A DNA stretch of 64,000 nt from Lysobacter dokdonensis DS-58 (GTDB lineage: Bacteria; Pseudomonadota; Gammaproteobacteria; Xanthomonadales; Xanthomonadaceae). Within the stretch, counting starts at the first letter, position 1; every line of letters begins with the position of its first letter. A model generated the notes under the pieces. It did not search any database, was not told the origin of the DNA, and saw only the letters and a list, made by a program, of their open reading frames with translations. This document shows positions 20,194 through 30,363 of this stretch, in pieces. The stretch is taken from assembly GCF_000770795.1 (NCBI RefSeq), contig NZ_JRKJ01000002.1, forward strand, positions 310,001-374,000, read 5' to 3'. The position numbers and the translations under genes were made by a program.

Positions 20194-21942
20194 TCAATCC
20201 GCCACGTGCCGCCGCGCGCGCGACATCGCGCGGTCCAGTTCGGTCTTCAATGCAGGCTCGGTCACCGGGGCATCGAGGACGTACACCGCGACGTCGTGCG
20301 GTGCCACGGTCGCGTCGAGCGTTCCGCCAGCTGCGACATTCACGGCCGTCCCCGCGAACACCGACTTCCACGCGCCCGGCTGCAGTGATGCGCGCACGCT
20401 GAACTGCGCGGGCGCGTCGCCCTTGTTCAGCAGCACGAGTGCGATCTGCGCGGACTTGCCCTGCTGCAGCACGCGATAGAACGCCGCATGGTCGCCCTGC
20501 ATTTCGACATTCACCTGCAGGCCGCGTTGCAACGCCGGGGTTTGCGCGCGCAGGTTCGCGATCCGGCGCAACTGGCGGTAGATCGGGCTGTCGGCCGCCG
20601 CGTCGATGCGGTCCTGCCCGTAATAGTTGCGGTTGCCGGTGTGTTCCGCGGTGCCGCGTTCGAAGCCGGTTTCCGAGCCGTAGTAGACGACGGGAATGCC
20701 GCGCAGGGTGAACAGCGCGTTGTTCGCATCGATGAAGCCGGCGTCCGTGGCGTCCAGGCGGGCCATGTCGTGGTTGTCGTAGAAGGTCATCAGGTCGTAC
20801 GGGTTCGCGTACGGACCGTTCGTCAGGTACAACGCCTTGTCGATGGCCTCGAAGCCGGCGCGCGGTTTGCCGAACGCTTCGCCGAACGCCTTCTGCAGCG
20901 GGAAATCGAGCACGCTCACGCCGGCGTTCTCGGGCCAGGTCTGCTCGGCGATCTTGTTGGCGTCGTAGTCGAACGCTTCGCCGAACATGAAGAAGCCCGG
21001 ATGCTTGTCGCGGATCTTCGTGACGAACTGGTGCCAGTACGAATGCGGCATCCACGGAATGGTGTCGATGCGGAATGCGTCGGCGCCCTGCCCGATCCAC
21101 TGTTCGTACGCGCCGAGGAAATACGGCAGCACGCGCGGATCGTTCTCGTTGATGTCCGACAACTGCGCCAGGCCGGGCTTGGTGTTGTAGAACGCGTTGA
21201 GCGGGTTCGACGGGTCGAGCTTGCCGGGCGCGAGGTTCATGTGGTCGGCGATCAGCTTGCCGTCCTTGTCGTAGATCTCGCCGTACTTGGGCTGGTCTTT
21301 CGGCATCGTGTATGCCGGCGAGCCGTGGTTCTGCACGATGTCGAGCACCGTCTTCAGGCCGTGCGATTTCAGGCCTTTCGTCAGGCCGCGGAAATCGAGG
21401 TTCTTGCTCGGCAGATGTTCGTCGAGCTTGTAGAAATTCACGCCCCAGTAGCCGTGGTAACCGGTCTTGCCCCGGTCGGTCCACATGCCGCCCCACTTCA
21501 CGGGGTCGCCGCCGGTGAAGGCTTCATCCGGCTGGTCGATGATCGGGGTCAGCCACACCGCGCCAAAGCCGAGGTCCTTGATGTATTCGGCGTTGTCGAG
21601 CAAGCCGCGGAAGTCGCCGCCGAGGTAACCGACGTTGTCGGACTTGCCCTTCGGTGCGCCGGGCACGGGGCGATCGAACGTGTGGAGCGCCGCGCCCTTG
21701 CCCTGGTCGCGATGGTCGTTGGTCTTGTCACCATTGACGAAGCGATCGGTGAGCACGAAATACACCGCGTCGGCCGCGAATGGTTCGTTGGTGCCGTAGT
21801 ACTCGACGGGCTTGGGCGCTTCGGCCTTGGTTTCCGGCGCCGGCGGAGGCGCGGGTTGCGTGCAGCCCACCAACGCCGTCATTCCCGCGCAGGCGGGCAT
21901 CCAGAACCACGACGCACGTTGCAACATCCTGCGAGCCTTCAC
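20194..21942 (-). CDS. GH13 alpha-amylase/neopullulanase-like lipoprotein (GTG start)
   Basis: A 582-residue secreted GH13 enzyme that hydrolyses alpha-1,4 glucan or maltodextrin. The catalytic residues are clear: nucleophile Asp in DAFRIDTIPW, acid Glu in FMFGEAFD, and transition-state Asp in FYDNHDMAR. QNHGSPAY and YLGGDFRGL are typical of periplasmic cyclomaltodextrinase-like members. The GTG at 21942 overlaps the transporter stop as GTGA and has GGAG seven bases upstream. The N-terminus ends in a lipobox (ALVGC-TQ) followed by a Pro-rich linker, so it is probably membrane anchored. The hydrophobic core before the lipobox (WMPACAGMT) is the translation of a repeat element. It is the third gene of the operon with the six-hairpin glycosidase and the transporter. 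Confidence 0.92.
   Translation of the reverse strand: MKARRMLQRASWFWMPACAGMTALVGCTQPAPPPAPETKAEAPKPVEYYGTNEPFAADAVYFVLTDRFVNGDKTNDHRDQGKGAALHTFDRPVPGAPKGKSDNVGYLGGDFRGLLDNAEYIKDLGFGAVWLTPIIDQPDEAFTGGDPVKWGGMWTDRGKTGYHGYWGVNFYKLDEHLPSKNLDFRGLTKGLKSHGLKTVLDIVQNHGSPAYTMPKDQPKYGEIYDKDGKLIADHMNLAPGKLDPSNPLNAFYNTKPGLAQLSDINENDPRVLPYFLGAYEQWIGQGADAFRIDTIPWMPHSYWHQFVTKIRDKHPGFFMFGEAFDYDANKIAEQTWPENAGVSVLDFPLQKAFGEAFGKPRAGFEAIDKALYLTNGPYANPYDLMTFYDNHDMARLDATDAGFIDANNALFTLRGIPVVYYGSETGFERGTAEHTGNRNYYGQDRIDAAADSPIYRQLRRIANLRAQTPALQRGLQVNVEMQGDHAAFYRVLQQGKSAQIALVLLNKGDAPAQFSVRASLQPGAWKSVFAGTAVNVAAGGTLDATVAPHDVAVYVLDAPVTEPALKTELDRAMSRARRHVAD
21878..21904 (+). repeat. REP-like palindromic element, copy 1 (inside amylase signal sequence)
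   Basis: A 27-base element beginning gtcattcccgcg and ending gcgggcatccag, with an internal stem CCCGC/GCGGG. It belongs to the widespread 'AFAGMT/IPAKAGIQ' class of short palindromic repeats. It lies in frame in the amylase gene and encodes WMPACAGMT of the lipoprotein signal. Confidence 0.75.
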
Positions 21943-23459
21943 GACGCAACTCCACTCTGGATCCCTGCTTTCGCGGGGATGACGGCGCCAGGCTCCCGCA
22001 CGCGCAGCACGCACAACCCGGCCACGATCAGGCTCGCACCACCGATGACCAGCGCATAGATCGGCTGGTTGCCGAAGAAATACTTCAGCATCAGCCCCAG
22101 CAGGCTGGCCGCGACCAGCTGCGGGATCACGATGAAGAAATTGAAGATGCCCATGTAGACGCCCATCTTCCCCGCAGGCAGTGAATCCGAGAGCAACGCG
22201 TACGGCAGGGACAGGATCGACGCCCACGCGAAGCCCACGCCCACCATCGACAGCAGCAGCCATTGCGGCTCGCGGATGACGGCCATCGACAACAGGCCCA
22301 GCCCGCCCAGCACGGCATTGATGAGATGACTCGTGCGCAGCCCCCAGCGCTTCACCATCCACGGGATCACGATGGCCGCCAGCGCCGCGAAGCCGTTGTA
22401 CGCGGCGAACAACACGCCCACCCAGTTCGCGCCCTCGTTGTAGGCGGCCGAAGTGGTGTCCGTGCTGCCGAAATGCACCTGCGTCACCGCCCCGGTGGTG
22501 TAGATCCACATCGCGAACAAAGCGAACCAGGAGAAGAACTGCACGACCGCGAGCTGCCGCATCGTCTGCGGCATGTCGTACAGGTCGTCCATGATGTTCG
22601 AAAAACCGCCCGCTCCCTGGACCAGCGTACGGATCAGCAACGCCAGGCCGTAGCCGGCGACCAGGCCGCCGAGCACGTACAACTCGCGCGCCCACCCCTG
22701 CGTCCACACGGCGACGACGAACGCCAGGCCGGCAATCAACCATGCCAGCGCCAAAACGCGCATGCGCGTGGCATCGCGCGCGCGGGGCGCGATCGGTGGC
22801 GCCTCATCCCACGCATGCAACCGCTCCGGCGGATACTCGCGCGTCGTCGCAATCGTCCACACGATCGCGCCAAGCAGCACCGCGCCGCCGAAATAGAACG
22901 CCCAATGCACGGTCGCCGGCACCTCGCCGGGGCCTGCGGTATTGGACACGCCGAACTTCGCCAGCAACCACGGCAACAGGCTCGCGATCACCGACCCCAC
23001 GCCGATGAAGAAACTCTGCATCGCGTAACCGGAGGCGCGCTGCTTCACCGGCAACTGGTCGCCGACGAACGCGCGGAACGGTTCCATCGAAATATTGATC
23101 GACGCATCGAGGACCCACAGCAACCCCGCCGCCATCCACAACACGGGCGAGTTCGGCATCACGAACAACGCCAGCGACGCGAGGACCGCGCCGACGAGGA
23201 AGTACGGCCGCCGCCGCCCCAAGCCCGTCCACGTGCGATCCGACAGATACCCGACGATCGGCTGCACGATCAGCCCCGTGAGGGGCGCGGCGATCCACAG
23301 CATCGGGATGTCGTCCATCGGCGCGCCGAGCGTCTGGAAGATGCGGCTGGCGTTCGCGTTCTGCAGCGCGAACCCGAACTGGATGCCCAGGAAGCCGAAG
23401 CACATGTTCCAGATCTGCCAGAACGAAAGCGTCGGCTTGGCGGTGGGTGTCTGCGTCAT
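21939..23459 (-). CDS. GPH/SLC45-like MFS transporter for maltose or maltodextrin
   Basis: A 506-residue inner-membrane symporter with about twelve transmembrane segments. GFALQNANASRIFQTLG near residue 30 and YLSDRTWTGLGRRRPYF near 75 are diagnostic of the sucrose/maltose GPH-SLC45 group (Caulobacter MalY-like). Its place between a six-hairpin glycosidase (21-base gap upstream) and a GH13 amylase (4-base overlap downstream) supports maltose or malto-oligosaccharide uptake into the cytoplasm. The last residues (AVIPAKAGIQSGVAS) come from a repeat element and not from the family, so the ancestral C-terminus probably ended near REP(G). AAGGA precedes the ATG. Confidence 0.9.
   Translation of the reverse strand: MTQTPTAKPTLSFWQIWNMCFGFLGIQFGFALQNANASRIFQTLGAPMDDIPMLWIAAPLTGLIVQPIVGYLSDRTWTGLGRRRPYFLVGAVLASLALFVMPNSPVLWMAAGLLWVLDASINISMEPFRAFVGDQLPVKQRASGYAMQSFFIGVGSVIASLLPWLLAKFGVSNTAGPGEVPATVHWAFYFGGAVLLGAIVWTIATTREYPPERLHAWDEAPPIAPRARDATRMRVLALAWLIAGLAFVVAVWTQGWARELYVLGGLVAGYGLALLIRTLVQGAGGFSNIMDDLYDMPQTMRQLAVVQFFSWFALFAMWIYTTGAVTQVHFGSTDTTSAAYNEGANWVGVLFAAYNGFAALAAIVIPWMVKRWGLRTSHLINAVLGGLGLLSMAVIREPQWLLLSMVGVGFAWASILSLPYALLSDSLPAGKMGVYMGIFNFFIVIPQLVAASLLGLMLKYFFGNQPIYALVIGGASLIVAGLCVLRVREPGAVIPAKAGIQSGVAS
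21957..21983 (-). repeat. REP-like palindromic element, copy 2 (inside transporter C-terminus)
   Basis: An inverted copy of the element at 21878-21904. Read on the minus strand it starts gtcatccccgcg and ends agggatccag. It encodes IPAKAGIQ at the end of the GPH-type transporter. The two copies flank the transporter stop and amylase start head to head, a typical REP-pair arrangement. Confidence 0.75.
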
Positions 23460-25768: not shown

Positions 25769-27379
25769 ATGGACAACAATCGCTGGTGGCGTGGCGCGGT
25801 GATCTACCAGATCTACCCGCGCAGCTTCCTGGACACGGATGGCGACGGCGTCGGCGACCTCCCCGGCATCCTCGACCGGCTGGACTATGTCGCCAGCCTG
25901 GGCGTGGATGCGATCTGGATTTCCCCGTTCTTCAAGTCGCCGATGGCCGATTTCGGTTACGACATCGCCGACTATCGCGCGGTCGATCCGCTGTTCGGCA
26001 CGCTGGAGGACTTCGACCGCGTGCTGGCGAAGGCGCATGCGCTCGGCATCCGCGTGATGATCGACCAGGTGCTCAGCCACACCTCGATCGAGCACGACTG
26101 GTTCACCGAAAGCCGCCAATCGCGCGACAACTCCAAGCACGATTGGTACGTGTGGGCCGATGCCCGCCCCGACGGCACGCCGCCCAACAACTGGCTGTCG
26201 ATCTTCGGCGGCGTGGCCTGGCGCTGGGAACCGCGGCGCGGCCAGTACTTCCTGCACAACTTCCTCGCCTCGCAGCCCGACCTGAATTTCCACAACCCGG
26301 ACGTCCAGGCCGCGACGCTCGACAACGTGAAGTTCTGGCTGGATCGCGGCGTCGACGGCCTGCGCCTGGACGCGATCAACTTCTGCTTCCACGACACGCA
26401 ACTGCGCGACAACCCGCCGAAACCCGAGGCGTTGCGCACGGGCCGCGGGTTCAGCGCGGACAACCCGTACGCATTCCAATACCACTGGTTCAACAACACG
26501 CAGCCGGAAAACCTGCCGTTCCTCGAACGGTTGCGTGCGCTGCTCGATCGCTATCCGGGCGCGACGTCGCTCGGCGAGATCTCCTCGGAAGATTCGCTGG
26601 CGACGATGGCCGAGTATGTCGGCGAGCAGCGCCTGCACATGGGCTACAGCTTCGAGCTGCTGACCGATGACAAGAGCGCGGGCTACATCCGCAAGACGGT
26701 CGAAACACTCGAAACGCGCATGCCGCATGGCTGGCCGTGCTGGGCGATCTCCAACCACGACGTCGTACGCGCGGTGTCGCGCTGGGGCAACGGCGTCGAC
26801 GACGCGGAACATGCGCGGCAACTGATCGCGCTGGTGAGTTCGCTGCGCGGGTCGGTCTGTCTGTACCAGGGCGAAGAACTCGGGCTGACGGAAGCCGAAG
26901 TCGCGTTCGAAGACCTGCAGGACCCCTATGGCATCGCCTTCTGGCCGAACTTCAAGGGTCGCGACGGCTGCCGCACGCCGATGCCGTGGTCCGATGCGAC
27001 GCATGGCGGGTTCACGGAAGACAAGCCGTGGCTCCCCGTTCCCGACGCGCATCGCACGATCAACGTGGCGGCGCAGGACGCCGACGCCGGGTCCGTGCTG
27101 AACGGCGCGCGTGCGTTCCTGCAGTGGCGCAAGCAGCAGCCGGCCCTCGTGCATGGCAGCATCGCGTTCCTGGACGCGCCCGAGCCGATCCTGTGCTTCG
27201 AGCGCCGTGACGCGGCGCAGTCCATGCTGGTCGCCTTCAACCTGTCGGATGCGCAAGTCGAATGGACACTTCCCCAGCGCGCGGCCACGCCGATGCAAGC
27301 CCCGGGCACCACGACGGGCGCGCTCCGCGACGGACGCCTGGTGCTGCCGCCGCGCGGCGTGGTGTACGCCACGTTCTGA
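25769..27379 (+). CDS. Cytoplasmic GH13 alpha-glucosidase
   Basis: A 536-residue enzyme without signal peptide that cleaves malto- or isomalto-oligosaccharides to glucose inside the cell. The start MDNNRWWRGAVIYQIYPRSF is characteristic of GH13_23/oligo-1,6-glucosidase-type proteins. The catalytic set is nucleophile Asp in GLRLDAINF, acid Glu in TSLGEISSE and Asp in ISNHDVVR. The ATG at 25769 is preceded by GAGGGA. Family members with the short beta-to-alpha loop 4 seen here prefer alpha-1,4 linkages; that preference is inferred. It is first of a two-gene unit with the pullulanase-esterase, whose frame begins inside its last 118 bases. The operator at 25667 lies 89 bases upstream. Confidence 0.93.
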   Translation: MDNNRWWRGAVIYQIYPRSFLDTDGDGVGDLPGILDRLDYVASLGVDAIWISPFFKSPMADFGYDIADYRAVDPLFGTLEDFDRVLAKAHALGIRVMIDQVLSHTSIEHDWFTESRQSRDNSKHDWYVWADARPDGTPPNNWLSIFGGVAWRWEPRRGQYFLHNFLASQPDLNFHNPDVQAATLDNVKFWLDRGVDGLRLDAINFCFHDTQLRDNPPKPEALRTGRGFSADNPYAFQYHWFNNTQPENLPFLERLRALLDRYPGATSLGEISSEDSLATMAEYVGEQRLHMGYSFELLTDDKSAGYIRKTVETLETRMPHGWPCWAISNHDVVRAVSRWGNGVDDAEHARQLIALVSSLRGSVCLYQGEELGLTEAEVAFEDLQDPYGIAFWPNFKGRDGCRTPMPWSDATHGGFTEDKPWLPVPDAHRTINVAAQDADAGSVLNGARAFLQWRKQQPALVHGSIAFLDAPEPILCFERRDAAQSMLVAFNLSDAQVEWTLPQRAATPMQAPGTTTGALRDGRLVLPPRGVVYATF

Positions 27380-30363
27380 GTGCGCTCGCGGCGCTGTGCG
27401 TCGCGGGGTTCGCGTTGCCGGCGTTCGCGGAATCGCCTACGCGTGCCGATTGCGATGATCCGACGCCGTTCACGGTACTCGGGACGCGTTGGCAGGCATT
27501 GGAGCGTGCGCTCCTGTCTCCGGTGGAACTCGATGCGCGCTACGCGGATGCCGCCGACGCACTGGTGCTGGGCGCCTCGCCGAAAGGATTCGCCGTGTGG
27601 GCGCCGACGGCGGACAACGTCGCGGTTTGCGTGTACGACGGCCCACGTTCGGCCGCCACGGGCCTCCACGCGTTGCAGTTCGACTTACGCACCGGTGCAT
27701 GGCATGCCTCGATTCCGGTCCGTGAGAACACGTATTACGTCTATCTCGTCGATGTCGGCGTGCCGGGCACGGGGTTGGTGCGCCAACGCGTGACCGATCC
27801 GTACTCGGTCGCCCTCGCCGCCAACGGCACGCGCAGCTTGTTCGTCGACCTCGATTCCCCGGCGACGAAACCCGAAGGCTGGGATCCGAAATCCACGCCC
27901 AAGCGCATCGAAGCGCCCACCGACCTGGTCGTCTACGAACTCCACGTCCGCGACTTCTCGCGCGACGACGCCACCGTACCTGCCGCGCATCGCGGCAAGT
28001 ACCTGGCTTTCACCGATTCCGAATCGAACGGCATGCGCCACCTGCGCGCGCTCGCCGACGCGGGTGTGACGGACATCCACCTGCTGCCGGTGTTCGACTT
28101 CGCCACCGTGCCCGAGGTCGGTTGCGATCCCGCGGGCGACAAAGCGCACGACTGCTTCAACTGGGGCTACGACCCGGTCCATTTCAACGCGCCAGAGGGC
28201 AGCTACGCGAGCAGTGCGGACGGCAACGCGCGCATCGTCGAATTCCGCCGGATGGTGCAGGCGCTGCACGCAGCGAACCTGCGCGTGGGCATGGACGTCG
28301 TCTACAACCACACGATGGCCGCGGGCCAGGCGCAATGGTCGGTGCTCGACCGCATCGTCCCCGGCTATTACCACCGCTACAACGACGACGGCACGCTTGC
28401 GACGTCGACGTGTTGCGCGAACACCGCCACCGAGCGCCGCATGATGGCCAAGCTCATGCGCGATTCGGTGGTGCTGTGGGCCACGCAGTACGGCATCGAC
28501 TCCTTCCGCTTCGACTTGATGGGCCACCAGCCCCGCGCGGCGATGGAAGATCTGCAGCGCGCGTTGAAGGCCGCGACGGGGCGCGACATCCCGCTGATCG
28601 GCGAAGGATGGAACTTCGGTGAAGTCGCCGACGGCAATCGTTTCGTGCAGGCCTCCCAGTTGTCGCTCGCCGGCTCGGGCATCGCGACGTTCAGCGATCG
28701 CGCCCGCGACGCCGTGCGCGGTGGCGGACCGGGCGATGCGATGCCCGCGCTCGTCGACAGGAAAGGCTGGATCAGCGGCGGCGCCACGCAAGGCAACGCC
28801 GACTTGGTGCGCATCGGGCTGGCCGGCACGTTGCGCGATTACGTCCTCGACGGCCGCACGCTGTCATCGCTCGACTACAACGGCCAGCCCGCCGGCTACG
28901 CATCGCAGCCGGGCGAGGTCGTCAATTACGTCGAGAACCACGACAACCGGACGCTCTACGACATCGGCCTGCTGAAGCTGCCGAAGGACACGCCGCCCGG
29001 CGAACGCGCACGAGTCCAACTGCTCGGCACGGCGACCACCGCCTTCAGCCAGGGCATCGCCTACTTCCACGCCGGCATCGACGTGCTGCGCTCGAAGTCG
29101 CTGGACGGCAACAGTTTCGACTCGGGCGACACGGCCAACCGGCTCGACTGGACGTATCGCGACAACGGTAGCGGCGCGCGCCCGCAGGACACCGCGTTCA
29201 TGCGCGATGCGTTCCGCGATCTGCTCCGGATCCGCGCGAGTTCGACCCTCTTCCGCCTGCGCACGCGCGAGGACGTCATGCAGCGCCTGACGTTGCCGCA
29301 GACCGGCACGCCGGAGGTGATCGCCGGCCGTCTCGACGGCAAGGGGCTGGCGGGCGCGCGGTTCCCGGCGGTCCAGTACTTCCTCAATGCGTCGACGGCC
29401 GTGCGCACCTTGACCCTGCCTGCATCGGCGGGCGAGCCGTGGGTCCTGCATCCGGTGCATCTGTCGCCCACCGCTGCGGATGCGCGCGCGCGCGATGCGA
29501 AGTTCGACCGCACGACCGGCGCGTTCACGATTCCGCCGCGCACGGCCGTCGTGTTCGTACAATCCGAGAGCGCGACGCTGCCCGACCTGCTGACGTTCCG
29601 CCTGCCCGCGCGCTTGTCGACGGACGAGGACATCACGGTCGACGTGCAACTGCCCGAAGGCTACGACGCCGGGCACCATTACCCGGTGCTGTACCTGGAC
29701 GACGGCCAGGACCTGGCCGACGTGCACGTGCGCGACACGCTGGAGAAGGTGCGCAGCGAATTGGCTCCCTTCATCGTCGTGGCGATCCACATGCCGCGCG
29801 ACCGCATGGCGGGGTACGGGCTCGCCGACCGCGTCGCGGGCCGGAGCGTGGTCTCGCCGACGAAGTACGGCCCCGTGGGCGCGAATGCGCATGCGTATTC
29901 CGAGTGGGTCGTGCGCACACTGGTGCCCTACGTCGATGCGCACTGGTCCACGCGGGCCGATGCGAACGGACGGGCGATCCTCGGTTGGTCGCTGGGCGGG
30001 ATCAACGCGTTCTCGCTCGGGTGGAACTATCCCGAGGTGTTCGGGCGAATCGGGGCGTTCTCGCCGTCGTTCTGGCTCGCGGATGCGCAAGACCGGCGCA
30101 TCGCGCAGGAACTCGTGCGCAGCTCGCCGGCCAAGCCCGGGTTGCGCGCGTACTTCGCCCTGGGCACGAAGGAAGAGGAAGGCGACCGCGACAAGGACGG
30201 CGTCATCGACGTGATCGATGACGCGAACGAACTGGCGACGTTGTTGCGCGAACGTGGCGGCAACGATGTCGTGGTGGTCGAACTGCCGGGCGGGATTCAC
30301 CGGCAGTCGTCGTGGGCGGTGATGTTGCCGGGGTTCCTGCGCTGGGCATTCCCCCGGCGCTGA
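27262..30363 (+). CDS. Exported pullulanase-type GH13 enzyme fused to a C-terminal esterase domain
   Basis: 1033 residues if the ATG at 27262 is used. Residues about 42-58 are a signal-peptide core ([18 protein letters not shown]). A CBM48-like N-domain ([20 protein letters not shown]) is followed by a type-I pullulanase catalytic domain with [13 protein letters not shown], nucleophile Asp in [10 protein letters not shown], Glu in [10 protein letters not shown] and Asp in VENHDN. From residue 773 onward lies a complete alpha/beta-hydrolase esterase domain (EsteraseD/enterochelin-esterase type) with Ser910 in GWSLGG and His1013 in GGIHRQ. The start is problematic: no ATG, GTG or TTG occurs close to the signal peptide, and the ATG at 27262 has no SD and lies inside the preceding gene. 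It probably debranches alpha-glucans and removes an acyl group. Confidence 0.88.

Follow-up and report, generated by a model that had tools for sequence, protein, structure and literature searches.

How does a short mobile palindrome come to lie within an export signal, and does it create that signal or become part of one that already existed? The question is raised by a 64,000-nucleotide stretch of the Lysobacter dokdonensis DS-58 genome (contig NZ_JRKJ01000002.1, positions 310,001 to 374,000; hereafter the window), in which the genes for a major facilitator superfamily (MFS) sugar transporter and an amylase-family enzyme of glycoside hydrolase family 13 (GH13) overlap by four bases. Two inverted copies of a 27-base repeat flank this overlap, as the original prediction had described (Table 1). 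We consider that one copy replaced the old hydrophobic core of the amylase signal peptide and was tolerated there, rather than giving birth to an export signal, and, judging from sequence comparison, we put the probability of this explanation at roughly 0.7. The position of the copies, their open frames, the lipobox in repeat-free relatives, the greater age of the overlap and the repeat family support it by observation.

The repeats are written into both proteins. Read on the minus strand, copy A encodes WMPACAGMT within the amylase signal peptide, the ninth codon being completed by the tag base next to the repeat, and copy B encodes VIPAKAGIQ within the transporter tail. The residues earlier attributed to the repeats, WMPACAGMT ahead of LVGC in the amylase and IPAKAGIQ at the end of the transporter, are thus encoded by them (transporter C-terminus VREPGAVIPAKAGIQSGVAS, followed by the stop; amylase N-terminus VKARRMLQRASWFWMPACAGMTALVGCTQPAP). 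With up to three mismatches the repeat pattern has two matches in the window and none in 100 dinucleotide shuffles. A search for further copies, proposed with the original prediction, returned 23 matches in the whole genome (G000, 3.27 Mb), and the same pattern read backwards returned 0. By tag, stem, loop and tail the repeats fit repetitive extragenic palindromic (REP) sequences of the CGTC-1/dRS3 type. Copy number swings strongly within the five genomes of the genus compared here: 23 in G000, 10 in G001, 0 in G002, 1 in G003 and 33 in G004. One further G000 copy (L015:1501-1527; G000:C24:109149-109175) is read in frame within a long codon-biased frame, some 55 codons from its beginning (VALAIAVISAKAGIHARATQLM); the filter that looked for intragenic copies by codon bias did not pick up the amylase itself, and no count is drawn from it.

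The likeness between repeat and protein could in principle be a coincidence of hydrophobic composition, in which case orthologues without the repeat should carry the same residues. They do not: the alignment of orthologous loci gave other residues both in the repeat-free transporter tails (EPAAHAAAAVSP, EPASHAVAAVTP and EPAMHATAAVTP, each followed by the stop) and in the amylase starts. Together with the shuffles and the reversed control, this leads us to reject chance and composition, which we regard as having a negligible probability.

To place the repeat in a wider frame, we used 82 transporter-enzyme junction loci (14 + 28 + 40), the last 40 being taken mostly from the top of a list of the 270 of 395 genomes of the family in which the enzyme was matched. 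Merging duplicates and setting aside two loci with no anchor (L104, L121) gave 71 distinct junctions, 68 of them with a same-strand upstream transporter. When these 82 loci and two weak non-orthologous matches were scanned with up to five mismatches (84 loci), two genomes alone had the repeat at the junction, G000 with two copies and G004 with one, and the reversed pattern gave 0. The G004 copy lies in the same frame and the same signal peptide as copy A of G000. The scan also returned one 5-mismatch match in L033, and in Lysobacter sp. ISL-50 three copies are grouped a short distance past the end of the enzyme gene (L027:4246-4381).

The signal peptide itself indicates what the repeat contributed. 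In G000 it comprises an n-region with four lysine or arginine residues, an 18-residue uncharged run and the lipobox LVGC, consistent with a lipoprotein. Nine of the 18 uncharged residues are written by the repeat. The lipobox cysteine is not among them, and in all five members of the genus the lipobox lies outside the repeat (amylase starts as chosen by the analyst, with the first codon written M). The three repeat-free congeners have a lipobox (LAGC, LASC, LIAC), and their starts are MRRALLVVAIALAGC (G003), MRAKSLFVAIGVALLASC (G002) and MLASKRPLAVALGVALIAC (G001); the repeat-bearing starts are MSRARLRDAWIPAFAGMTSVLLAGC (G004) and MKARRMLQRASWFWMPACAGMTALVGC (G000). The junction of Lysobacter gilvus (L024) is identical to that of G003 over the compared stretch. 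A simple lipobox rule picks out 43 of the 72 junctions of the family (72 by a stricter merging key). The rule is crude: in L026 it responded to a match ahead of the start, and in L027 it failed to recognise LCGC. Since the lipobox is outside the repeat and present in repeat-free congeners, the amylase was probably already a lipoprotein before the repeat arrived. The earlier proposal that the export signal had been made or remade from the repeat is therefore supported in its second form, with half of the uncharged core rewritten, and not in its first; the accompanying proposal that the repeat gave the enzyme its membrane anchor is not borne out. The signal appears to have been rebuilt around the repeat, and the predicted anchor would not be its product.

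The overlap is older than the repeats. In 50 of the 68 junctions, those of G000 and all four congeners among them, the transporter stop coincides with an in-frame start codon (RTGA), which indicates that the overlap is old and that both insertions respected it. As the overlap is ancestral, the usual niche of REPs between genes falls here within coding DNA.

These observations suggest the following course. REPs usually settle between co-transcribed genes, and this junction offers no intergenic DNA, so that the places where a landing would be tolerated are a disposable transporter tail and the loosely constrained signal peptide of the amylase. Copy B supplies most of the last residues of the transporter. 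Copy A may have survived because WIPAFAGMT, the sole one of the six repeat frames with neither charge nor stop, can stand in for a hydrophobic core; this frame is used in both G000 and G004. The old core would then have decayed, with the old lipobox retained throughout. With the 27 bases taken out in silico, 9 of the 18 residues of the uncharged run are left in G000 and 8 of the 17 in G004, the cysteine included, and loss of the repeat today would accordingly leave only this remainder. G004 would have followed the same course, probably in a separate event.

Several points weigh against this account, and they are given here with the alternatives to which they belong. Hydropathy is a crude proxy for a signal-peptide predictor; by this measure the repeat-bearing signals look less hydrophobic than the repeat-free ones (best 8-residue Kyte-Doolittle values of 1.86 and 1.70 against 2.39-3.49 in five repeat-free signals), on a scale that penalises tryptophan. 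The amylase could instead truly start downstream of copy A, leaving the repeat untranslated in that gene. In-frame ATG codons lie within the repeat and in-frame TTG and GTG codons just after it, and misannotated starts are described as common for N-terminal REPs in the portion of the family-defining paper cited here (PMC3733652). These alternative starts, however, yield neither a basic n-region nor a signal core, relatives keep the signal peptide, and the in-frame start at the overlap is shared as described above; we regard a downstream start as improbable.

A second matter is whether G000 and G004 acquired the repeat separately. At the amylase locus the tree is ((G000,G003),(G001,G002)),G004, with ultrafast bootstrap (UFBoot) values for protein/nucleotide alignments of 99/100 for G000 with G003, 79/75 for G001 with G002 and 91/97 for the four, and G004 branches off first within the genus. 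Trees of two further loci, for which G002 was chosen as the root, place G001 and G002 in conflict with the amylase tree and with each other; both still split G000, G003 and G001 from G004 and G002. The pattern would be explained by two gains, or by one gain with at least two losses. In the second case one old copy A insertion would have preceded the split of the genus and been lost without trace in G003, G001 and G002. Repeat sites shared within the genus make this possible: when 29 G000 loci, six of them weaker, were set against 34 loci with repeats from G004, G001 and G003, 3 of 22 G000 sites, the amylase among them, were shared with G004, 2 with G001 and 1 with G003, and by eye G003 has decayed copies at two sites common to G000, G001 and G004 (G002 has none there). 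L004/L013 also matched L154 over 179 bases at 72%, away from the repeat; this match was dropped.

Against a single insertion, no repeat remnant is detectable in the signal DNA of G003, G002 or G001. The signal DNA of G003 is still similar to that of G002 (codon-shuffle p 0.02-0.04) and that of G002 to G001 (p 0.002), with G003 against G001 not significant (p 0.14-0.23), whereas the flanks of the repeat do not match between G000 and G004 (p 0.22 and 0.09). We rely on codon-shuffle values: a base-shuffle global test gave p < 0.05 for every one of the nine pairs, even for those that look unrelated, and therefore cannot tell them apart. That G000 and G004 share the allele with the repeat through recombination was rejected as an explanation, although a short tract may have been exchanged: in 150-base windows from -450 to +300 of the transporter stop, G000 is slightly nearer G003 than G004 (e.g. 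0.88 vs 0.87), and four farther windows (-1500, +750, +900 and +1650) place it nearer G004, with few informative sites. Tree and flanks thus somewhat favour two separate insertions, short of proof, and a single old insertion is the less probable course, if by no means a negligible one.

The geometry of the pair bears on a further alternative. Among the loci examined, this is the only head-to-head pair in G000, where most copies are single. Twelve such pairs were seen in the genus, of which 11 have spacers of 14-30 nt (8 in G004 and 3 in G001) and the G000 pair has 52 nt. The pair does not appear to be a miniature inverted-repeat transposable element (MITE) or another single mobile unit of 106 nt, given that any other match in the genome takes in at most 18 of the 52 bases of the spacer and that the spacer length is itself an outlier. 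Likeness of the spacer to the junctions of relatives is not beyond chance (p 0.08-0.16), and its identity as the old junction consequently rests on position.

The inverted arms, which comprise the copies and neighbouring bases, are 84% complementary with 50 nt between them. The predicted folding energy of positions 21860-22000 is -73.9 kcal/mol (z -4.15); shuffled sequences average -58.4, and 0 of 200 were as stable. The amylase GTG lies inside the predicted hairpin. Selection may therefore act on the RNA, and the pair could be kept as an RNA element whose hairpin over the overlap adjusts coupled translation or shields the transporter mRNA; the residues that it writes into the proteins would then be incidental. 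This would accord with the placement of REPs mostly between co-directional or convergent genes, many of them thought to act as RNA according to the part of PMC3733652 cited here. An inverted pair, however, folds well regardless of its role, and G004 has only one copy at the junction, so that a long hairpin is not needed there. We consider such a role less likely than not as the reason for which the pair is kept; it would be compatible with replacement of the signal core by a tolerated repeat.

Table 1. Features of the transporter-amylase junction, in window coordinates.
Feature	Position	Strand	Size or extent	Details
Repeat copy A	21878..21904	+	27 bases	tag base C at 21877; GTCATTCCCGCGCAGGCGGGCATCCAG
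Repeat copy B	21957..21983	-	27 bases	tag base at 21984; GTCATCCCCGCGAAAGCAGGGATCCAG
Spacer between copies	21905..21956		52 nt	contains transporter stop and amylase start
Inverted arms with interior	21874..21987		32-nt arms, 21874-21905 and 21956-21987	predicted long RNA hairpin
GTGA overlap, transporter stop/amylase start	21939..21942	-	4 bases	transporter open reading frame ends at 21939; amylase-frame GTG at 21942-21940
Predicted lipoprotein signal peptide	21862..21942	-	27 codons	last codon = lipobox Cys (LVGC; Cys codon 21862-21864)
GH13 amylase-family enzyme	20194..21942	-		PF00128, 123.3 bits (cut-off 22)
MFS sugar transporter	21939..23459	-		PF07690, 84.1 bits, and PF13347, 43.3 bits (both above cut-off)

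The nearest solved sequences to the GH13 enzyme are cyclodextrin glucanotransferases (6wni, E 2.4e-54), and 'amylase' is therefore a loose name. Elsewhere in the window, a 1033-aa frame on the plus strand (27262-30363) has CBM48 and pullulanase-type C-terminal profiles and a C-terminal putative esterase (PF00756); its GH13 match is under the cut-off.

A second example, which speaks for the same course, was found in three species of another genus. A strict scan for the repeat followed by a lipobox matched 5 of 395 genomes, and we rejected a general route from repeat to lipobox; the strict pattern misses the G000 amylase itself, whose lipobox is LVGC. The matches comprised the G004 amylase, the locus described next (L203) and three others: L200 and L201 do not use the WIPAFAGMT frame, and L199, which does, looks spurious by eye. 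At L203, ccmH (PF03918, E 2e-44) overlaps the gene before it by ATGA, and two repeat copies are embedded in frame after this overlap and ahead of the ccmH signal core (L203:1335-1973; the upstream gene is dsbE-like by eye). The CcmH protein was matched in 25 of 25 genomes of that genus, weakly in G352. With up to six mismatches, repeats occur at the ccmH junction in 3 of 20 loci examined (genomes G235, G283 and G078; records L203, L205, L206 and L207) and are absent from 17. Between the ATGA start and the core, G235 has no ATG, GTG or TTG, G283 has two TTG and G078 one further ATG. The extension has a dN/dS of about 0.55-0.95, against 0.30-0.34 for the rest of the gene, on a poor alignment (44-63% identical); such fast drift is as expected of tolerated filler. 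Twelve other places in G235 match parts of the repeat-bearing stretch, and the insert there may thus be a multi-copy unit, unlike the pair in the window.

Taken with the amylase, ccmH raises the tentative idea, to which we give somewhat less than even odds, that RTGA overlaps, as translationally coupled junctions upstream of exported proteins, are recurrent landing places of CGTC REPs, and that REPs repeatedly remake export signals. At such junctions the stretch in which REPs usually settle would be taken up by the n-region and core of the signal peptide that follows. The cases are two amylase genes of one genus and the ccmH of another, and if the idea is true they would represent an evolutionary route by which export is weakened or retuned without loss of the open frame.

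Earlier papers already describe REPs within genes and a signal peptide derived from a repeat. We found no earlier report of this junction case in the literature covered, most subscription papers lying outside that coverage; new here is the second species (G004), with one copy in the same frame and the same signal peptide. The finding is real and modest. N-terminal intragenic REPs are usually suspected as start-codon errors, and here the conserved overlap points to the start. As the repeat must be crossed to reach the lipobox, the locus offers a testable case of a non-autonomous repeat joining an export signal, with a natural series of none, one and two copies in one genus and ccmH as a second system. 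No transposase is known for CGTC REPs, and the insertions in G000 and G004, if independent, would also bear on which target these repeats prefer.

Among known systems, GTAG REPs and their REP-associated tyrosine transposases (RAYTs) share with these repeats the short palindromes, often in head-to-head pairs. The original prediction had called the repeat REP-like and suggested a search for a RAYT. The tag reads CGTC, and the GTAG class was therefore rejected. A profile search of the five genomes gave 0 matches to the RAYT domain (Y1_Tnp) in G000, G002, G003 and G004, and mobilisation by a RAYT was rejected, the domain being found in G001 alone (L204; G001:C4:298054-298386).

The RU-2 repeat in YPO1552 of Yersinia pestis (Delihas 2007, PMC2759123) differs in being a 168-bp MITE-like unit of another family, and an operon overlap is not described in the part of that paper cited here. 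RPE-4 and RPE-6 of Rickettsia conorii, classed as CGTC-4 and CGTC-1 in the corresponding part of Di Nocera, De Gregorio and Rocco (2013, PMC3733652), are also CGTC palindromes inserted in frame in genes that likely encode functional proteins, unlike the present repeats in that the formation of a signal peptide is not reported for them in that part.

The closest likeness is to the CGTC-1 REPs, which the portion of the same paper cited here equates with the dRS3 of Neisseria and describes as predominantly head-to-head dimers with no dedicated transposase. It also describes intragenic copies, the N-terminal ones often being start-codon errors; Lysobacter is not mentioned in the main text. In the window the CGTC tag is completed by C at 21877 for copy A and by its complement at 21984 for copy B, and the copies read, as stem/loop/stem/tail, ATTCCCGC/GCAG/GCGGGCAT/CCA and ATCCCCGC/GAAA/GCAGGGAT/CCA. 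They thus have the 8-bp stem (7 of 8 pairs formed in each), the 4-nt loop and the CCA tail of the class, and with 23 genomic copies are multi-copy as its members are. The head-to-head arrangement of this pair, a setting at co-directional gene ends and intragenic copies are likewise known from the class, while most copies in G000 are single. What sets the present pair apart is one mismatch per stem, a 52-nt spacer longer than that of any other pair observed in the genus, and a position in which the two copies straddle a gene overlap.

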